Below, piece after piece: positions 16,897 through 51,346 of a stretch of DNA of 52,882 bases. The DNA comes from an uncultured Flammeovirgaceae bacterium. Lineage in GTDB: Bacteria; Bacteroidota; Bacteroidia; Cytophagales; Cyclobacteriaceae. The notes below the pieces were generated by a model, which was not told where the DNA came from, made no database searches, and saw nothing but the letters and a program-made list of their open reading frames with translations. A program made the translations under genes and the position numbers. The DNA lies in assembly GCA_913050055.1 (NCBI GenBank), contig CAJXAT010000005.1, forward strand, positions 1 to 52,882, given 5' to 3'. Positions within the stretch are counted from its first letter, which is position 1; every line of letters starts with the position of its first letter.

Positions 16897-17907
16897 ATGA
16901 AATCAATTATCAATTTTTTATCAATGAGCACCCTGTGTTCATTGATTATCTTCTCATCATGCGGCGATGATGATGACACCACTGTTACAGATGCTTCCGA
17001 TGAAGCGACAGTCGTAGATGCCGATAGTGATGGTATTGCGGATGCCAATGACACATGTGGGGATACGCCCAGTGGAGTAACGGTAGACAGTAATGGTTGT
17101 TCAGATAGTCAAAAAGATACTGATGAAGATGGCGTAATGGATGATTTGGATACCTGTGCGGATACTGCCGAAGGTACGAATGTAGATGAAAATGGATGTG
17201 ATATTATAACAGATGATATAACGACAGATTGTATTACTTCTAATTCGGCTAATGATATTGCGGTCATTGCTTGTAAATATTATAACGATGAGGCGCTTAC
17301 AGTAGTGGTTGGTGAAACGACAATTACGATCACATCAACCAATGAGCCGGATCATAAAAGTATGTATTATGATACTAGTAATCCTCTGTTTGAGGCCTAT
17401 AGCGAGCCTGATAATGAAGATTTTTTTAAAAATCCAAACAAAATTACGGCTATGAACTACACCTTTACCCTGCCTAGATTTCCTGAAGCGGCCACAAATA
17501 ATGAAGGGACTCCATTTGGGCCAATGGGTGTATCCATAAACAGTGTAGTGTTTTATAACCAGCAGGCCGCACCTGGAGACGATATATTGGAAGAACTTAA
17601 TACTTTTGATCAATATGAAGGTCATCCCACCAATACGGGTTCTTATCATTATCATATAGAGCCTACGTGGTTAACAGAAATAAAAGGCGACAGTTCCTTC
17701 TTAGGCCTTTTACTTGACGGATTTCCAGTTTACGGTCCGGTAGAAAGTGGAGTAACGTTGACCAATGATGACCTTGACGATTATCATGGCCACACACATG
17801 TAACTGAAGATTTCCCAGACGAAATTTATCATTACCACATCACCGCTGATCTTCCGTGGATCAATGGGGGCGAATACTATGGTACGCCGGGTTCGGTTAC
17901 GCAATAA
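16897..17907 (+). CDS. Surface lipoprotein with thrombospondin-3 repeats and a YHYH domain
   Basis: The 336-residue protein has a lipobox ending at Cys22, followed at once by GDDDD, an acidic stretch like the Bacteroidota lipoprotein surface-export signal. Residues 40-105 carry calcium-binding thrombospondin type 3 repeats (DADSDGIADANDTCGD, DTDEDGVMDDLDTCAD). The C-terminal 200 residues are a YHYH domain: GPMGVSINSVVFYN, GSYHYHIEPTW, LLGLLLDGFPVYGP, YHGHTHVTEDFPDEIYHYH. The clustered His pairs suggest metal binding, but the family's role is unknown. Expected location is the outer face of the outer membrane. No partner gene is evident; the next gene is convergent. Confidence 0.88.
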   Translation: MKSIINFLSMSTLCSLIIFSSCGDDDDTTVTDASDEATVVDADSDGIADANDTCGDTPSGVTVDSNGCSDSQKDTDEDGVMDDLDTCADTAEGTNVDENGCDIITDDITTDCITSNSANDIAVIACKYYNDEALTVVVGETTITITSTNEPDHKSMYYDTSNPLFEAYSEPDNEDFFKNPNKITAMNYTFTLPRFPEAATNNEGTPFGPMGVSINSVVFYNQQAAPGDDILEELNTFDQYEGHPTNTGSYHYHIEPTWLTEIKGDSSFLGLLLDGFPVYGPVESGVTLTNDDLDDYHGHTHVTEDFPDEIYHYHITADLPWINGGEYYGTPGSVTQ

Positions 17908-30248: not shown

Positions 30249-30256
30249 CAAATTTA
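30249..30256 (-). promoter_or_regulatory. Candidate -7 promoter box for the TonB receptor gene
   Basis: TAAATTTG on the minus strand, 54 bases before the start codon, fits TANNTTTG. No -33 TTG is seen. Confidence 0.35.
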
Positions 30257-30860
30257 TAAAAAACTTTGGACGTGATAATTTTTTTAAATGTACATGTGGA
30301 GAGGAGGTTGCAATTAACGGTTACATTAAATAATATTAATTGTCTTAATTAATCAAATTATATTAATTCTAATGTAAGATACATTTAAATGAGGTATCTG
30401 AGTTGTTTTTTTCTTGCGCAGTATCAGAAGATCTTTTTATTAAAAGGCAGAGTATATTACGGTCATAATGAAGCGAATGGCATGATAAAAAAAATTTCTG
30501 ACCTAAAGAACTATATAAAAACTTTGTTCTTCTTTAAGACTCAAAGTTATGTCCCAGACATATAGGCTTTCGAGCTTCCTTTTTAGTGAATTTTAATATT
30601 TTGATAAATTCAGAGACTGTTCAGGAGAGTTATCCATAGGAGAATTGATAAAGTGAAATGGAGCCAGATTTAAATATAAAACTTACATTGTTAGATAAAG
30701 CATTTTGATGATTCTAGTGTTGAGATCTCTGTGCTTATGCAAATAGGAGGGGTTACCTTTCAAAAAAAGAGGGTATTAAATGTATTAAATTCTTCATGAT
30801 AACGGGTTTAAGTGAATATACATTTTATTAAAAAAATAAGCATTCATTAAAAAAATTCTA
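30257..30860. other. Divergent intergenic region, no gene seen
   Basis: About 600 bases of AT-rich sequence between the receptor gene and the acidic lipoprotein gene. I looked for a cobalamin riboswitch on the minus strand and found no conserved B12-box-like element. Confidence 0.45.
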
Positions 30861-30868
30861 TAAATTTG
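30861..30868 (+). promoter_or_regulatory. Candidate -7 promoter box for the acidic repeat lipoprotein gene
   Basis: TAAATTTG ends 40 bases before the ATG at 30909. Transcription would begin near 30875, which argues for the 30909 start rather than the GTG at 30876. Confidence 0.45.
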
Positions 30869-30908
30869 AAGAATTGTGCTAATTTTAAAAATCAAAAAAC
30901 TACAAAAA

Positions 30909-33416
30909 ATGGAAAAATTCAAAAATATATTGTTCATCAGTGCATTGCTGTTAATGACAGTATTCATGTCATGTACAGAGGATGATGATATTGATGATCT
31001 TGAAAATGGAGATAGTATTGCTAATGACAGTACTGATGTTGTCAATGAGGATAATATTCCTGTTCCTGAAACGTCTGGTTTAATAATTTTTGGAGGAGAT
31101 ACCATTCTATTGAGCTTAGGTGCATTGGAATATTACGGAATCGAGGATGATGGGAACATACCATTTTTAGGATATACAAACATAGATGGGGAACGTTGTT
31201 TTGAATTACCTTTTAACACGGACATTCTATTACAGGGAGGTACTTATACAGTAGAACAGCTGAATGATTTTATGGAGGCAGAAAGTCAAGAAGAGTTTGA
31301 GGCGCTTGCTGAAGAGTTTGGTCCGGGTAATGTTATTGGAATTTTTTCTTGGCTAGATCATGATGATGAAGAGCTAAGCAGTGGTGAGTATGTTGGAGGC
31401 ACGAAATTTTTTAATGAAAATTTCCCAAATTACACAGTGACTTCGAGCGAGGAGTTAGATGCATTTATGGAAGGTAAGTACGATGAAACTTATGGATCTG
31501 CCTGTATGGAGTGTGAAGAAGCTTATCAAAATGCGTGTGCTGGAGATGAAATGACTTTTGAAATGTGGGATGAGGAAACAGAAGATTACGTGGAGGTTAC
31601 AGAAATTATGACAGGAGAAAGACTATATGAGACTTATTCGTATTCCTATAATTGTCGATTAACGGGTGTTGATCGAACATGGATGGATGAGGTCTGTAGT
31701 ATGGAAGATTTATCTTTCGGTAACTTAATTAACGAGTTTGAAATAGGTATGATTTCTGCTAACGAAAATGGAGAAGTTGAAGATCAATTCTATGATGTTT
31801 CAAATGTCACTTTATCTTTAGAAATCTTGGGTGATGGCCAGTATTCTATAAATGCAAGTGGGGAAGCGACTCTGTATGATGAAGAAAGTGAAGAGGCTAT
31901 TTCAGATCTCATACCTTTTACGATGAGTTATACGGGTGTTCTTTATGAAGAGAATTTTGAGGATGAAGAGAATTTTGAGGATGAAGATGATTATTTTGAA
32001 GATTGTTTTACAGAGGAGCTATCTGAGACAGAAGGTTGGTGGGTTGATTCTGTCATGATAATTTATCCAGACGCTCAAATTGATTACGCCTTATTAAATA
32101 TTTGTGAGACGGGAGATTATATAGATGAACATTTAATCGTGGCCATATACGACGGAAGCTTCGTAGATGAAGAAGGTGAAGAAACCGATTATTTCTGTGA
32201 AATTGTATTTGAAAATATAACGCAAGAGCTTGTTTATAATGGCTGTGCAAATTGTGACTTTACAGATATTGATATTGATGAACAGGGTTACTGGATGACA
32301 CATCTTGACTCTGCTTACCAAGATGCATCTATAGATCACATCGAATTGGTAGATTGTAGTGAATTCTATCCAGAAGATCCCATTATGTTGAATATCTACC
32401 TTGATAATGGTTGTTTCATCACCTTCGATCATGAGACGGAAACGATCTGGTCGGAGTATTGTGAAACTTGTGTAATAACTGAAATTGAGGTAACGGAGCA
32501 GGGTTATTGGAGTGAATTTATTCCAGAAGACGAGATCATTATGGATATTATTTTAGATGAATGTGTCTTTGATGATAGGTTACCGGAGAGTTTTCTTCAT
32601 ATATACTTTGAAAGTGGTTGTTTCTTGGTCTTCGACGACATAGAAGAGGATTTGATTGGAGATTTTTGCTCAGAAGGTCCAGATGAGGAATATTGCAGTA
32701 TTTCTGAAGTTTCAGTTGATGAAGAAGGTTATTGGTTGGATATTCTTAATGGACCAGAATTTGATTCTATCTATGTACTTGATCAAATGCTTATTGAGGC
32801 TTGTAGAACTGATTTTGAAGGGCCTGAGGCGGATTTAAGGATTGTATTTCTTGTTAATGTCGATAGTTCTGTAAGGGTTATCACATTTGATGAAATGGCT
32901 CAAGAGATTGCTTTTGATAGTGATGAAGATTCACTAGAGAATTGGAGTATGATATCATTGAACGATACACAGTGGGCAGCAAAAATTGCAGATGAATATC
33001 CTGATCAATTGGTTGAAGCGGTCTACAAAAACTCATATGAAGGAGATAATGAGTCTTGGAATGATATATTTGTTTTCTTTGAAGACGATTGTTTGGTGAT
33101 ATTTGATGATAATGATGGCATGATTTGGGAGGATCTATGTAAAGGATGGTACGATGAGGACGAAGATCATCATGATGGAGATGGAGTAGATAACGGTAGA
33201 AAAGAGATGCACACCAAATCTTTCCTTGGAAAAACCATATCTTTTAATGATATCAAATCAAATATCAATCAATTTGTCCCTGCCATTCGTGGGAAGAAGA
33301 CTGACTTGATAAGCAAAGGTATCATTAGAAAAAAAGTAGATATCAATATATATTCTAAGCGTAATAATTCGAATATCAAAAAAGTGAAAAAACCGCAATT
33401 CTCTTTTTTGAGATAA
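30909..33416 (+). CDS. Very acidic surface lipoprotein with tandem Gly-aromatic-Trp repeats and a basic tail
   Basis: The ATG at 30909 gives 835 residues starting with a lipobox ending at Cys22 (VFMSC) and an acidic TEDDDIDD stretch like a surface-export signal. Residues 40-355 hold a first region with CMECEEAYQNAC and a beta-rich part. From about 360 to 745, five units of about 70-85 residues follow. Units 1-4 open with 'E-x-x-G(W/Y)W' (GWW at 376, GYW at 460, 532, 607); most then have a strand like IYLDNGCFITFD and a closing C-x-x-C or similar. Unit 5 is more divergent. The chain is loaded with Asp and Glu, but the last 75 residues are Lys/Arg-rich. An 18-base tandem duplication lies at 31947-31982. 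I recognise no family. Confidence 0.85.
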   Translation: MEKFKNILFISALLLMTVFMSCTEDDDIDDLENGDSIANDSTDVVNEDNIPVPETSGLIIFGGDTILLSLGALEYYGIEDDGNIPFLGYTNIDGERCFELPFNTDILLQGGTYTVEQLNDFMEAESQEEFEALAEEFGPGNVIGIFSWLDHDDEELSSGEYVGGTKFFNENFPNYTVTSSEELDAFMEGKYDETYGSACMECEEAYQNACAGDEMTFEMWDEETEDYVEVTEIMTGERLYETYSYSYNCRLTGVDRTWMDEVCSMEDLSFGNLINEFEIGMISANENGEVEDQFYDVSNVTLSLEILGDGQYSINASGEATLYDEESEEAISDLIPFTMSYTGVLYEENFEDEENFEDEDDYFEDCFTEELSETEGWWVDSVMIIYPDAQIDYALLNICETGDYIDEHLIVAIYDGSFVDEEGEETDYFCEIVFENITQELVYNGCANCDFTDIDIDEQGYWMTHLDSAYQDASIDHIELVDCSEFYPEDPIMLNIYLDNGCFITFDHETETIWSEYCETCVITEIEVTEQGYWSEFIPEDEIIMDIILDECVFDDRLPESFLHIYFESGCFLVFDDIEEDLIGDFCSEGPDEEYCSISEVSVDEEGYWLDILNGPEFDSIYVLDQMLIEACRTDFEGPEADLRIVFLVNVDSSVRVITFDEMAQEIAFDSDEDSLENWSMISLNDTQWAAKIADEYPDQLVEAVYKNSYEGDNESWNDIFVFFEDDCLVIFDDNDGMIWEDLCKGWYDEDEDHHDGDGVDNGRKEMHTKSFLGKTISFNDIKSNINQFVPAIRGKKTDLISKGIIRKKVDINIYSKRNNSNIKKVKKPQFSFLR
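31947..31982 (+). repeat. In-frame 18-bp tandem duplication
   Basis: GAAGAGAATTTTGAGGAT occurs twice back to back and encodes EENFED twice inside the acidic lipoprotein. It is identical at base level, so it is recent. Confidence 0.9.
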
Positions 33417-33441
33417 GTATAAATAGAAGTAGATTCTAAAA

Positions 33442-33480
33442 AGCCGATGATAGATTTTAAATCTATCATCGGCTTTTTTT
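33442..33480 (+). terminator. Strong rho-independent terminator
   Basis: A perfect 14-bp stem AGCCGATGATAGAT / ATCTATCATCGGCT with a five-base loop is followed by a T run. It lies 25 bases after the stop of the acidic lipoprotein gene. Confidence 0.93.
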
Positions 33481-33932
33481 ATATTAATCATTACTCAATG
33501 GCTAAAAAGACCTTCTATGACTTTTTGAATTTAAGACTCACTTGATTTGTATGATTTAATATTTGAAGTTGAGCATGATGATTTATGCTACCTCGATTTT
33601 TATAATTAATAGCCTAAGCACCAGTATGGATGGGGTGTAGCTATTGTATACCGTCAGTAAAAAGTGAACTTATAAGGGTTAAATTAAAAGAGCGTGTTTT
33701 AAACAGAGTAATCTATTTAATCCGTGCGTAGTATTTAAAATAATTATGTAAAAAGCAGATTACAGCTCTAATTAAAAAGGAGAGCAAGAGTAAGATACTT
33801 TTATTAAAATCCCGAAAAGGTTTTATTTGAAGCCTTCTTACCGTTGCATCATAATTGGCCTTAATTCTCCGGGGGCTAAGGCTCATTATGTAACAATATG
33901 GGTAGAGGTAGGCTGAACTCTTAATAAGTGGC
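33481..33932. other. Intergenic region, no gene seen
   Basis: About 450 bases between the terminator and the 3' end of the OmpA-type gene. Stops occur in every frame and I see no structured RNA. Confidence 0.5.
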
Positions 33933-47178: not shown

Positions 47179-49083
47179 TTATAATAATTCAATGGCAGCC
47201 AGTGCCGCTCTTGATCCCTCAGTGAGTGCATTGGTATGGCCCATATAGCCATTGAGTTCTGAAGGACCAAACTGTATTTGGCGATAACCGTTTTTTACGA
47301 TTTCTTTTGGAGATTCTTTGCCATCTTTGCCAAAATGAAAACCGGGCTGTGGTGAGATATAGGCATGACCCCATCGGTTGAGAACAATTCCTGCGATATC
47401 TTCCCGAGTGTTAAAACCATAGTCGGAAAATATAAGGGTCATCTGCTCAACAATCTCTTTTTCATAATCACTATAGGATTTGCTGAGCAGCTCGGCACGG
47501 CCTATAGTTCTTTGTACAGATATAGGATGTCCGGGATTATTAAATGGAACATAAAAAGTCATTACGGCCAGTTTTTCCGGCTCAAAGGGCTGATTTTTTT
47601 TACCCGTATACATTGGATGCCTGATGGAGAAGAAATTACCAAAGTCCTCAAACCATCGGGCAGAAGCAATACCTAATTCGTTAAGAAACTGTCAACGGCG
47701 TACTGCAACATTAACAACCAAAATAGGTGAGAGTGATTTCTTTATAGGCATCAGTAATTGTAGGGGGTAGGTCTTTAATGATATGCTTTCCCACTCAGCC
47801 TTCAATTGCTGAAACAACGGTCTTAGCTTTAACGCGTTTTACCAATTCATTTTCTTGGTAGGTGACGATCACATGCTTCAAAGTGTCGATAGCACCTGCA
47901 TGCCTAATATCGATAGCCGTACTATTCAGTCGTATGATAATCAGATTACTTGGTCTATCTAAAGCCTTAAAATTAATGGAATTAATAAAATATCTTCAAA
48001 TTTTTTTCCGCCCGTGATACTTTCAGGTATGAGGTATTTTACAATATATCTAAAACTGCCGGTATTACCGCCAGGAAAGCTTAATGCCCCCATTTCAACT
48101 TCATTGATACTGCTATCATAAACATAACGCGTGCGTGCAGGACATTTCTAACTCTCTGGCTGAATAGGCAGAGTAAATATCACAGCCAACCCCTACCATA
48201 GATATGGCAATGATGGGGTCAAAATATTCAGTCACTGCTGGGCTGTAGCCATATACTTTTTCAAGTAAGTCTTTATGAGACATACTGTCTAATCACCGAT
48301 CAATGTCGTCCCCTTGATACTTATCTTCAAGGTCTTCAAAGGCACGATTTAAGTCGACTGGCCAAGGCAAACGGTCGGTTTATCAGCTCTTAGATTAATG
48401 ACCCAGGACTTTTTAGATTCCTTACCTAAAAAGTAACCGGTATCAAAACGCTCGTCATCCCAATACATCCCATAATAGTTTTCTATCGGCGCCTAAACCT
48501 TGGTCTTTTCGGGATCTTGCCTAACAAATTTATAGTCAAAAGGGAGACCAATTACGCAACAAATTTCAGCAATAAGTCTGTTATCATCTTTTTTAGGTGG
48601 GCCAAAATCATTAGATCCTTGAGGGCCATAGAGTTTATAACCATCGACTTCAAATTCATTTTGCTTTGCCTCACCTCCAAATACAGGATGATTTTCAATA
48701 ATTAAACATTTTTTAGTATTATCGTATTTTTTATGAAATTGGTAAGCGGCACCAAGTCCTGAAAATCCGCCATCAATAATGACCATATCATATTCTTCAC
48801 CTGTATCCCCTACTTCGTCCAATAGTTTTGGCGTGAGTCCATCACGGATTAAATGGGCGGCTTTTCGAACTGAGCCGATATTACCATTTGAATTTGCATA
48901 ATCACCTACCCCAGCAAAACCCGTCAATGGGTCATTAAAAAGGGCAACTGATTTTCTTTCTGCGCCAATAACGGATAAACTTGGACTCAATAAAGCCACT
49001 CCTAAACCGACTAAACTACCATTGACAAAATCTCTCCGAGAAATGTTTTTTGATAGTTGTAAGTCTTTATTCTTATTTTTCTT
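47179..49083 (-). pseudogene. Decayed Tat-exported spermidine-dehydrogenase-like FAD oxidase gene
   Basis: Fragments in gene order: a twin-arginine signal SRRDFVNGSLVGLGVALLSPSLS (about 48980-49050), GDYANSNGN, the Rossmann motif YDMVIIDGGFSGLGAAYQF with IIENHPVFGGEAKQNEF, then broken middle pieces (GALSFPGGNTGSF; NFKALDRPSNLIIIRLNST; VVSAIEGWVGKHIIKDLPP), then an open 3' part with MTFYVPFNNPGHPI, GRAELLSKSYSDYEKEIVEQM and LNRWGHAYISPQPGFHFG. The frame upstream lacks a start codon and the middle (about 47614-48492) is full of stops and shifts. This order matches Pseudomonas-type spermidine dehydrogenase family flavoproteins. It cannot encode a working enzyme. Confidence 0.9.
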
Positions 49084-50755: not shown

Positions 50756-51346
50756 TTAGAAACCGTCTCTCAATATTTCAAAATAAGTTTTGTAGCGCGC
50801 TCTGGTGTCTGCATCATTGAAGATCAGAAATTGTTGAGTGTATATAGTAGTTGTGGGAGCAATATTAGCAAAGGATGGTAAATCTTGGGAACACCGGTAT
50901 TGATCTCGACAATTATTTACGCAAAGGGAACCTACTTTAGTAGGAGCAAAATTTAAAATTAATCGGTAAGAGGTAGAATCCATTCCTGTGAAAATATCTT
51001 CCTTGATAGAATAAATATCCTTAAAATTGGCCTTATAATTAGACCCATAAATATTAAGCCAAATCCGAGCATCCTCTGTTTGGTAGTTGCAATTATTGAA
51101 ACTTTGAGTAATTTGAAAATCACCTACCATATTTACCAAAAAACTGTAATTAACATCACTCAGCAATTCCCCCTGAATTGTAGAATGATTTTGTAGTTCA
51201 TTAAATTCTTCCGAGAAAATAGCTTCTGTAGTAATCGGGTTATTATTTAGGAAAGAAATGGCATTCTCGTAATTTTCCTCTTCCTTCGAACAACTAACTA
51301 TAAGAAGACTTAATATGAAGAGGCTTGAAAATACTAATTGACGCAT
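50756..51346 (-). CDS. Small lipoprotein of unknown function
   Basis: The 196-residue protein has a lipobox ending at Cys19 (LLIVSC) followed by SKEEEN, which fits the K-(D/E)2 lipoprotein surface-export signal of Bacteroidota. A Cys-x3-Cys-x5-Cys cluster (CVNNCRDQYRC) in the last third could form disulfides or bind metal. The rest is beta-rich with no family signature. Minus-strand TACTTTTG at 51351-51358 fits a -7 box but would start transcription at or next to the ATG, hinting at a leaderless or mispredicted start. Confidence 0.7.
   Translation of the reverse strand: MRQLVFSSLFILSLLIVSCSKEEENYENAISFLNNNPITTEAIFSEEFNELQNHSTIQGELLSDVNYSFLVNMVGDFQITQSFNNCNYQTEDARIWLNIYGSNYKANFKDIYSIKEDIFTGMDSTSYRLILNFAPTKVGSLCVNNCRDQYRCSQDLPSFANIAPTTTIYTQQFLIFNDADTRARYKTYFEILRDGF

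Follow-up and report, generated by a model that had tools for sequence, protein, structure and literature searches.

The window analyzed here, a stretch of 52,882 nucleotides, contains at positions 30909-33416 an open reading frame of 835 residues organized, from start to end, into a signal peptide with a lipobox, an acidic start, an N-terminal region, five repeated units, and a basic tail. The features of the locus, in window coordinates, are as follows.

30250 to 33500, no strand: divergence island, including the upstream intergenic stretch, delimited by DNA identity per 250 bases to genomes G006 and G003
30909 to 30971, plus strand: signal peptide, residues 1-21, with the lipobox at its end (type assigned by eye)
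30972 to 31091, plus strand: predicted lipidated Cys22 and acidic linker, C-T-E-D-D-D, with 13 Asp/Glu and 0 Lys/Arg in residues 22-61
31092 to 32003, plus strand: N-terminal region, residues 62-365, with no convincing family match or confident model
31945 to 31980, plus strand: two identical 18-bp copies in tandem, in the acidic linker preceding unit 1; their protein-level doubling is absent from the other ortholog rows
32004 to 32252, plus strand: unit 1, residues 366-448, its sheet region carrying an extra insertion (profile match)
32253 to 32468, plus strand: unit 2, residues 449-520, the top unit-profile match within the lipoprotein (E 8.4e-29)
32469 to 32693, plus strand: unit 3, residues 521-595, with a shortened helix region (profile match)
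32694 to 32942, plus strand: unit 4, residues 596-678, lacking the C54/C70 pair (profile match)
32943 to 33146, plus strand: unit 5, residues 679-746, lacking the C1/C34 pair (profile match)
33195 to 33413, plus strand: basic tail at the C terminus (residues 763-835), the seven tails of this length having a net charge of +15 to +20
33438 to 33478, plus strand: terminator-like hairpin, 19 pairs followed by a T run, weak by count since one was found and shuffles give a mean of 1.7

The start of the protein and its lipobox are identical in the four aligned full-length orthologs. The published export signal of Bacteroidetes surface lipoproteins is of the SDDDD type, with an acidic run behind the lipobox Cys (PMC5080379), and S-C-T-E-D-D-D, read by eye, similarly presents the lipobox Cys, a polar residue, and acidic residues. 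The lipoprotein is thus predicted, from these sequence features, to be displayed on the cell surface, as a first-pass annotation of this DNA had suggested. The acidic chain with a basic end that it described is also borne out, the calculated charge being approximately −188 over residues 22-770 and approximately +12.5 over residues 771-835. Searches of the whole protein against Pfam, NCBIfam, PHROGs, and PDB sequences gave nothing convincing; the top NCBIfam row, the PG1828 family lipoprotein, has an E-value of 0.15 and lies under its cut-off. As for promoters, sigma-70-like sites occur at chance frequency, and a Bacteroidetes-type promoter pattern is also at chance level, with none near the gene.

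The five units span residues 366-746, and the repeat is real. Six unit pairs score above composition (U2-U3, z 12.2; U3-U4, 6.4; U3-U5, 6.0; U1-U2, 5.6; U2-U4, 4.8; U2-U5, 4.7), and four are weak, with z values of 1.3-2.1 (U1-U3, U1-U4, U1-U5, and U4-U5; unit 1 against a nonrepeat stretch gives 1.8). A single unit profile recovers all five units in the window with E-values of 1.6e-20 or better; because the profile was partly built from these five units, the recovery is a consistency check and no independent discovery. The G-(W/Y)-W heading is found at G376, G460, G532, and G607, and in unit 5 the heading is D-T-Q-W689. Thus, the five units proposed in the first-pass annotation hold, but its E-x-x-G heading does not, as most headings read E-x-G or E-G. 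Its closing Cys cluster also needs restating: the cysteines are there, but as two co-varying pairs per unit and not as a single cluster, and those between units 1 and 2, 2 and 3, and 3 and 4 are the first residue of the following unit. Numbered from the first Cys of the modeled unit copy (described below), Cys 1 and 34 are jointly present or jointly absent in 40 of 40 unit copies, and so are Cys 54 and 70. Both pairs are found in 24 copies, 8 copies lack 54/70 (unit 4 and its G007 counterpart), and 8 lack 1/34 (unit 5 and its G007 counterpart), while the spacing of Cys 54 and 70 is 16 residues in all copies having both, save one in which it is 18. The pattern probably records only two independent losses, and two disulfides per unit are therefore something we infer from the sequences.

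The array is present in 7 of the 10 genus genomes, including the window's own (in G003 it is split by a frame break and in G008 it lies on two contig ends), and G007, in which a C-terminal fragment is found at the end of a contig, brings the total to 8 of 10. It was not found in G002 (81% complete) or G004 (94% complete). The repeat thus recurs in other genomes of the same genus, with the five-unit array in five further genomes and split in G003. This distribution also bears on the age of the repeat, which had been called recently expanded on the strength of the 18-bp duplication. The duplication is confirmed, but it lies in the linker, outside the units, and its protein repeat, ENFEDE, is not doubled in any other ortholog row, although at this place G003 has another short acidic repetition. 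Because the five-unit array is already found in the other genomes, the duplication gives no evidence of recent unit expansion, and we dropped that reading. Identity to the window protein is 63-79% in the four full-length orthologs and 70-86% over the aligned split copies. Over the gene, dN/dS is 0.16-0.19 against three relatives, indicating that the protein is kept by purifying selection.

The unit profile was also run against genomes drawn from the family, order, class, and phylum, draws that overlap and are each a sample. It matched 9 of 295 family genomes, all of the window's genus except G089; 3 of 390 order genomes, one of these a frame with stops (E 9.6e-4) that we took as chance; 1 of 395 class genomes, the window's own; and 3 of 395 phylum genomes, two of which, with E-values of about 0.005, were judged chance as they fall inside isocitrate-dehydrogenase-type and proline-dehydrogenase-type frames, read by eye. 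The family draw was searched with a profile that includes unit 4 and the phylum draw with one lacking it. A match in G016 (E 9.5e-4) was rejected in the same way, since the frames of more than 200 residues there look, on inspection by eye, like a DNA methyltransferase and a histidine-kinase-like ATPase. The unit was absent from IMG/VR (pattern search), plasmids, and phages.

In addition to the array, the profile search revealed one more unit copy in the window's genome, inside a 599-residue protein that belongs by Pfam to the SusD/RagB family (PF07980, 109.4 bits; PF14322, 74.5 bits; above cut-off). The unit copy lies in a loop of this SusD-family lipoprotein, which adjoins a SusC-type receptor with a Plug domain. 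SusD-inserted copies are also found in G005, G006, G009, and, beyond the genus, G089. In a search of 148 family genomes, two SusD homologs from other lineages without the unit (G120 and G034) were compared, and these run through the insertion site with a loop of approximately 18 residues instead, showing that the unit is a self-contained and portable domain. At the G089 locus (L046 2085-13012), an alpha-L-fucosidase and a frame that reads by eye as SusC-like accompany the SusD gene with the inserted unit, an arrangement like that of glycan-use loci.

Because of the SusD insertion, the main rival to the function that we propose below is glycan or nutrient capture, in which the unit would be a ligand-binding module of uptake complexes and the array lipoprotein would feed a TonB-dependent receptor. 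The unit copy in a SusD-family protein adjoining a SusC-type receptor, the unit in the G089 locus with alpha-L-fucosidase, and the TonB-dependent receptor gene that adjoins the array gene in the window are all consistent with such a role. This receptor gene also lies near the array gene, on the same contig, in both G006 and G003, and in G008 it is on the contig with the N-terminal part. However, the receptor gene is divergently transcribed and thus forms no operon with the array gene, and co-occurrence is not strict, the SusD insertion being present in 4 of 10 genus genomes and G089 having no array. Moreover, a strongly acidic protein would be an unusual binder of neutral or acidic glycans. 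Collectively, these data leave capture a serious competitor that we nonetheless hold to be doubtful.

The unit has no convincing match in Pfam, NCBIfam, or PDB sequences, where the stray rows, at E-values of 0.09-1, come from unrelated families. We therefore turned to its predicted fold. An AlphaFold2 model of the SusD-inserted copy from G005, for which the alignment held 16 other unit sequences (unit 4 and the unit-4-like G007 copy aligned badly and are outside the 17 rows), has a pLDDT of 96.3 and a pTM of 0.82 and shows the order b-a-b-b-b-b, with a helix packed on an antiparallel four-strand sheet as in PepSY_like domains. Foldseek ranks 3due, 3db7, and 3elg (two chains) first to fourth, with probabilities of 0.97-1.00 and query TM scores of 0.55-0.64; the top E-value is 0.16, and no row reaches 0.001. 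These structures are DUF2874 proteins of Bacteroides (Das et al. 2010, PMC2954215). Against viral models, Foldseek gave nothing convincing (lowest E 0.42). VIA-align superimposes the unit model (70 residues) on the first half-repeat of 3elg (Z 6.9, rmsd 1.8 Å over 64 residues), 3db7 (Z 6.7, 1.7 Å over 63), and 3due (Z 6.6, 1.8 Å over 63), and of the other folds tick cystatin gives Z 6.6 with 2.4 Å over 63 residues and monellin up to Z 6.3 with 2.9-3.7 Å, where by the tool's own guidance Z values below 8 may mean just a common arrangement.

Because these middling Z values may reflect a common arrangement, profiles were compared by hhalign, using a PepSY_like alignment of 11 of the 12 extracted proteins (the shortest, L076, which is below cut-off, was omitted and L079, also below, was kept). 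The unit scores 18.3 against the second PepSY_like half-repeat, a score reached by 0 of 200 column shuffles (maximum 14.0; reversed, 6.1), 18.5 against the whole two-repeat alignment (reached by 2 of 200 shuffles), and 11.6 against the first half-repeat (5 of 200), with hhalign probabilities of 0.7-9.4%, thus below 10% in each case; with unit 4 in the alignment the score is 16.0. The register of this weak profile similarity agrees with the order of the structural elements. From the model and the hhalign comparison, we read the unit as a divergent BLIP/PepSY-like module, neither a new fold nor a member of PF11396. Indeed, PF11396 gave no row for the whole protein (Pfam, E up to 5). Seven units taken separately and both SusD-family hosts likewise gave none (E up to 10), nor did the 17 unit-alignment sequences or the rest of the window's genome. 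A PF11396 protein does occur in G004 (L072), the only one among the 10 genus genomes searched; the array was not found in that genome.

It could be argued that the fold match is due to chance, reflecting a common alpha-plus-sheet arrangement, and that the unit represents an unrelated family of small domains. The Z values under 8, the comparable values for cystatin and monellin, the missing PF11396 match, and the hhalign probabilities under 10% would fit this explanation, but we consider it quite unlikely: the top four Foldseek rows all belong to a single family of the same phylum, the DUF2874 structures superimpose more closely (1.7-1.8 Å over 63-64 of 70 residues) than cystatin or monellin, and, for the second half-repeat, a profile register that fits the element order outscores all 200 shuffles. 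The assertion that no described domain has this shape thus stands for the sequence libraries searched and fails for the fold, which is predicted to be BLIP/PepSY-like; the structure prediction of one unit that had been proposed alongside it yields a confident model nearest to PepSY_like/DUF2874, while a sequence match to that family is absent. The full-length lipoprotein model is poor (pLDDT 38.9), and in it the protein's own units show a similar element order at low confidence; that they share the fold of the modeled copy is what we infer.

Comparison with PepSY_like/DUF2874 (PF11396; BVU2987, 3due; BT0923, 3db7; BVU2443, 3elg) shows that the likeness comprises the predicted fold of one half-repeat and, as the family was described in 2010, tandem copies, exported Bacteroidota proteins, and negative charge (PMC2954215). 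The differences are several. The array unit has no sequence match with the family, and its two co-varying Cys pairs may be a further difference. The array contains five copies, compared with the one to four reported for DUF2874 proteins, for which the same text describes a negatively charged concave face and proposes a partner-binding inhibitory role (PMC2954215). No other domains co-occurring with DUF2874 were found in that 2010 text (PMC2954215), whereas the array protein is a lipoprotein with additional regions, its N-terminal region and basic tail, and a further unit copy is inserted in SusD. BLIP (PF07467) and PepSY (PF03413) are placed with DUF2874 in one superfamily of BLIP-like fold by Das et al. 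(PMC2954215); they give no direct match here and are related via DUF2874 only, and nothing found here points to beta-lactamases or peptidases. In the open literature (titles and abstract starts), we found no description of a PepSY-type domain joined to SusD or in tandem in surface lipoproteins.

The comparison also bears on the suggestion in the first-pass annotation that the array binds calcium or other cations, its acidity serving ion binding or surface hydration. The charge of approximately −188 over residues 22-770 would suit this idea, and 3db7 is titled "calcium-regulated" in the PDB. However, no EF-hand- or TSP3-like motif is seen by eye or by Pfam in the lipoprotein (the OmpA-type neighbor does match TSP3), and the word "calcium" has no occurrence in the main text of the paper on 3db7 (PMC2954215). 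We found no support for ion binding, which thus appears improbable.

The C-terminal tail is basic in all eight sequences with a readable end, seven of which have 73 residues and a net charge of +15 to +20, and the eighth, from G007, 16 residues and +7. The six other same-length tails are 53-74% identical to the window's. Two explanations of the tail were rejected: a frameshift artefact, as it is conserved over 73 residues in seven same-genus sequences including the window's, and a shared sorting signal, as no convincing match was found elsewhere in 39 genomes (best nonortholog E 0.005, with stops). The tail is without confident structure in the full-length model and is probably disordered. For BVU2987, the negatively charged concave sheet is proposed to suit a positively charged partner (PMC2954215). 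Since the acidic face of this DUF2874 protein is proposed to bind such a partner, the tail might, by analogy, touch the protein's own units.

The array gene lies in an island of divergence. Compared with G006, DNA identity is 75-91% in the island and 89-99% in the flanks; compared with G003, it is 78-89% except for 93-96% over 31250-32000, with a 5′ flank of 88-98%. The 3′ flank was compared to G006 only, the G003 flank being interrupted by other genes. In G003 (L062 10498-17116), a stretch of approximately 6.6 kb that contains an ABC transporter among its frames separates the array gene from the OmpA-type gene; the two are adjacent in the window. The synonymous divergence of the array gene relative to G006 is 0.629, compared with 0.055-0.264 for 11 other window genes (the row for the 16897 gene, dS 2.0, was omitted, as its match lies elsewhere on the contig and looks like a paralogue). 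Relative to G003, the part before the frame break has a dS of 0.281, inside the range of 21 other genes (0.109-0.287); by region, residues 62-365 give 0.18-0.20, unit 2 gives 1.08, and the tail 0.76. The G003 copy compared with G006 shows the reverse pattern, with residues 62-365 at 0.39-0.83, unit 2 at 0.10, and the tail at 0.14. The array gene is high but not alone relative to G008 (0.80; 17 others 0.10-1.39), shows no excess relative to G001 (0.845; four others 0.71-0.97), and is slightly in excess relative to G009 (1.55; five others 0.95-1.33). Thus, G006 shows a clear excess and G003 a partial one; it is weaker for G008, slight for G009, and absent for G001.

In a MaxChi-type test, a switch falls near residue 388, with a chi-square of 72 that 0 of 2000 permutations reach; the permutations treat sites as independent, so these figures and those that follow are not exact probabilities. 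Five of nine triplets give 0 of 2000, two with G008 as child give 5 and 13 of 2000, and two show no signal (190 and 633 of 2000). The four flanking genes show no signal in the same test (940, 2000, 1542, and 2000 of 2000), two of them having few informative sites (52 and 21). Collectively, the island, the region-wise reversal of dS, and the switch indicate that close relatives have exchanged whole alleles as well as parts of them, and the locus is an intragenic mosaic. Such exchange of gene segments suggests selection from outside. In the open literature (titles and abstract starts), no description of mosaic Bacteroidetes surface lipoproteins was found.

The explanation that we favor, and consider somewhat better than an even bet, is a surface lipoprotein composed of five disulfide-stabilized BLIP/PepSY-like modules, an N-terminal region, and a basic tail, which would act as a multivalent partner-binding array whose alleles are reshuffled under outside selection. 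Its most likely function would thus be to display several acidic binding or decoy modules together on the surface, with recombination as the source of their diversity. BLIP-like proteins are proposed to bind partners on the same or another protein (PMC2954215), and the units may similarly bind a partner through their acidic sheet face, so that an array of five would bind multivalently at the cell surface. The basic tail would occupy the acidic face in cis or contact the anionic envelope. An outside agent, whether phage, bacteriocin, competitor, or ligand variant, would select on the array surface and so reshuffle its alleles. A bolder version of this proposal, which we consider unlikely as it stands, would make the modules a new disulfide-stabilized BLIP/PepSY lineage and a portable surface module, seen both as the insert in a SusD loop and as an acidic array with its own tail bound to it in an autoinhibited or decoy state, with modules swapped between species under pressure from phages or rivals.

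The 2010 text left the role of DUF2874 in Bacteroidota as a partner-binding proposal (PMC2954215). The single SusD-grafted copy and the five-copy lipoprotein could serve as small folded constructs with which to ask about the partners of such modules, and the mosaic locus suggests that the outside world selects on the array protein in uncultured Cyclobacteriaceae. It is the portable module in SusD together with the mosaic locus that raises the interest of the array.

A lipoprotein-like frame at 50759-51346 has a dS of 1.39 relative to G008 and 0.21-0.26 relative to G003 and G006 and is possibly another exchanged locus. The frame at 16897-17904, with a dS of 0.50 relative to G008, is lipoprotein-like and very acidic (net −57 in 336 residues), with D-x-D-x-D-G stretches, read by eye, and a YHYH domain. 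Finally, a flavoprotein-like gene at 47182-48999 is possibly broken, with a 144-residue frame at 47182-47613, compared with frames of 541 residues in G006 and 499 residues in G003, and a fragment with an NAD_binding_8 match at 48496-48999.
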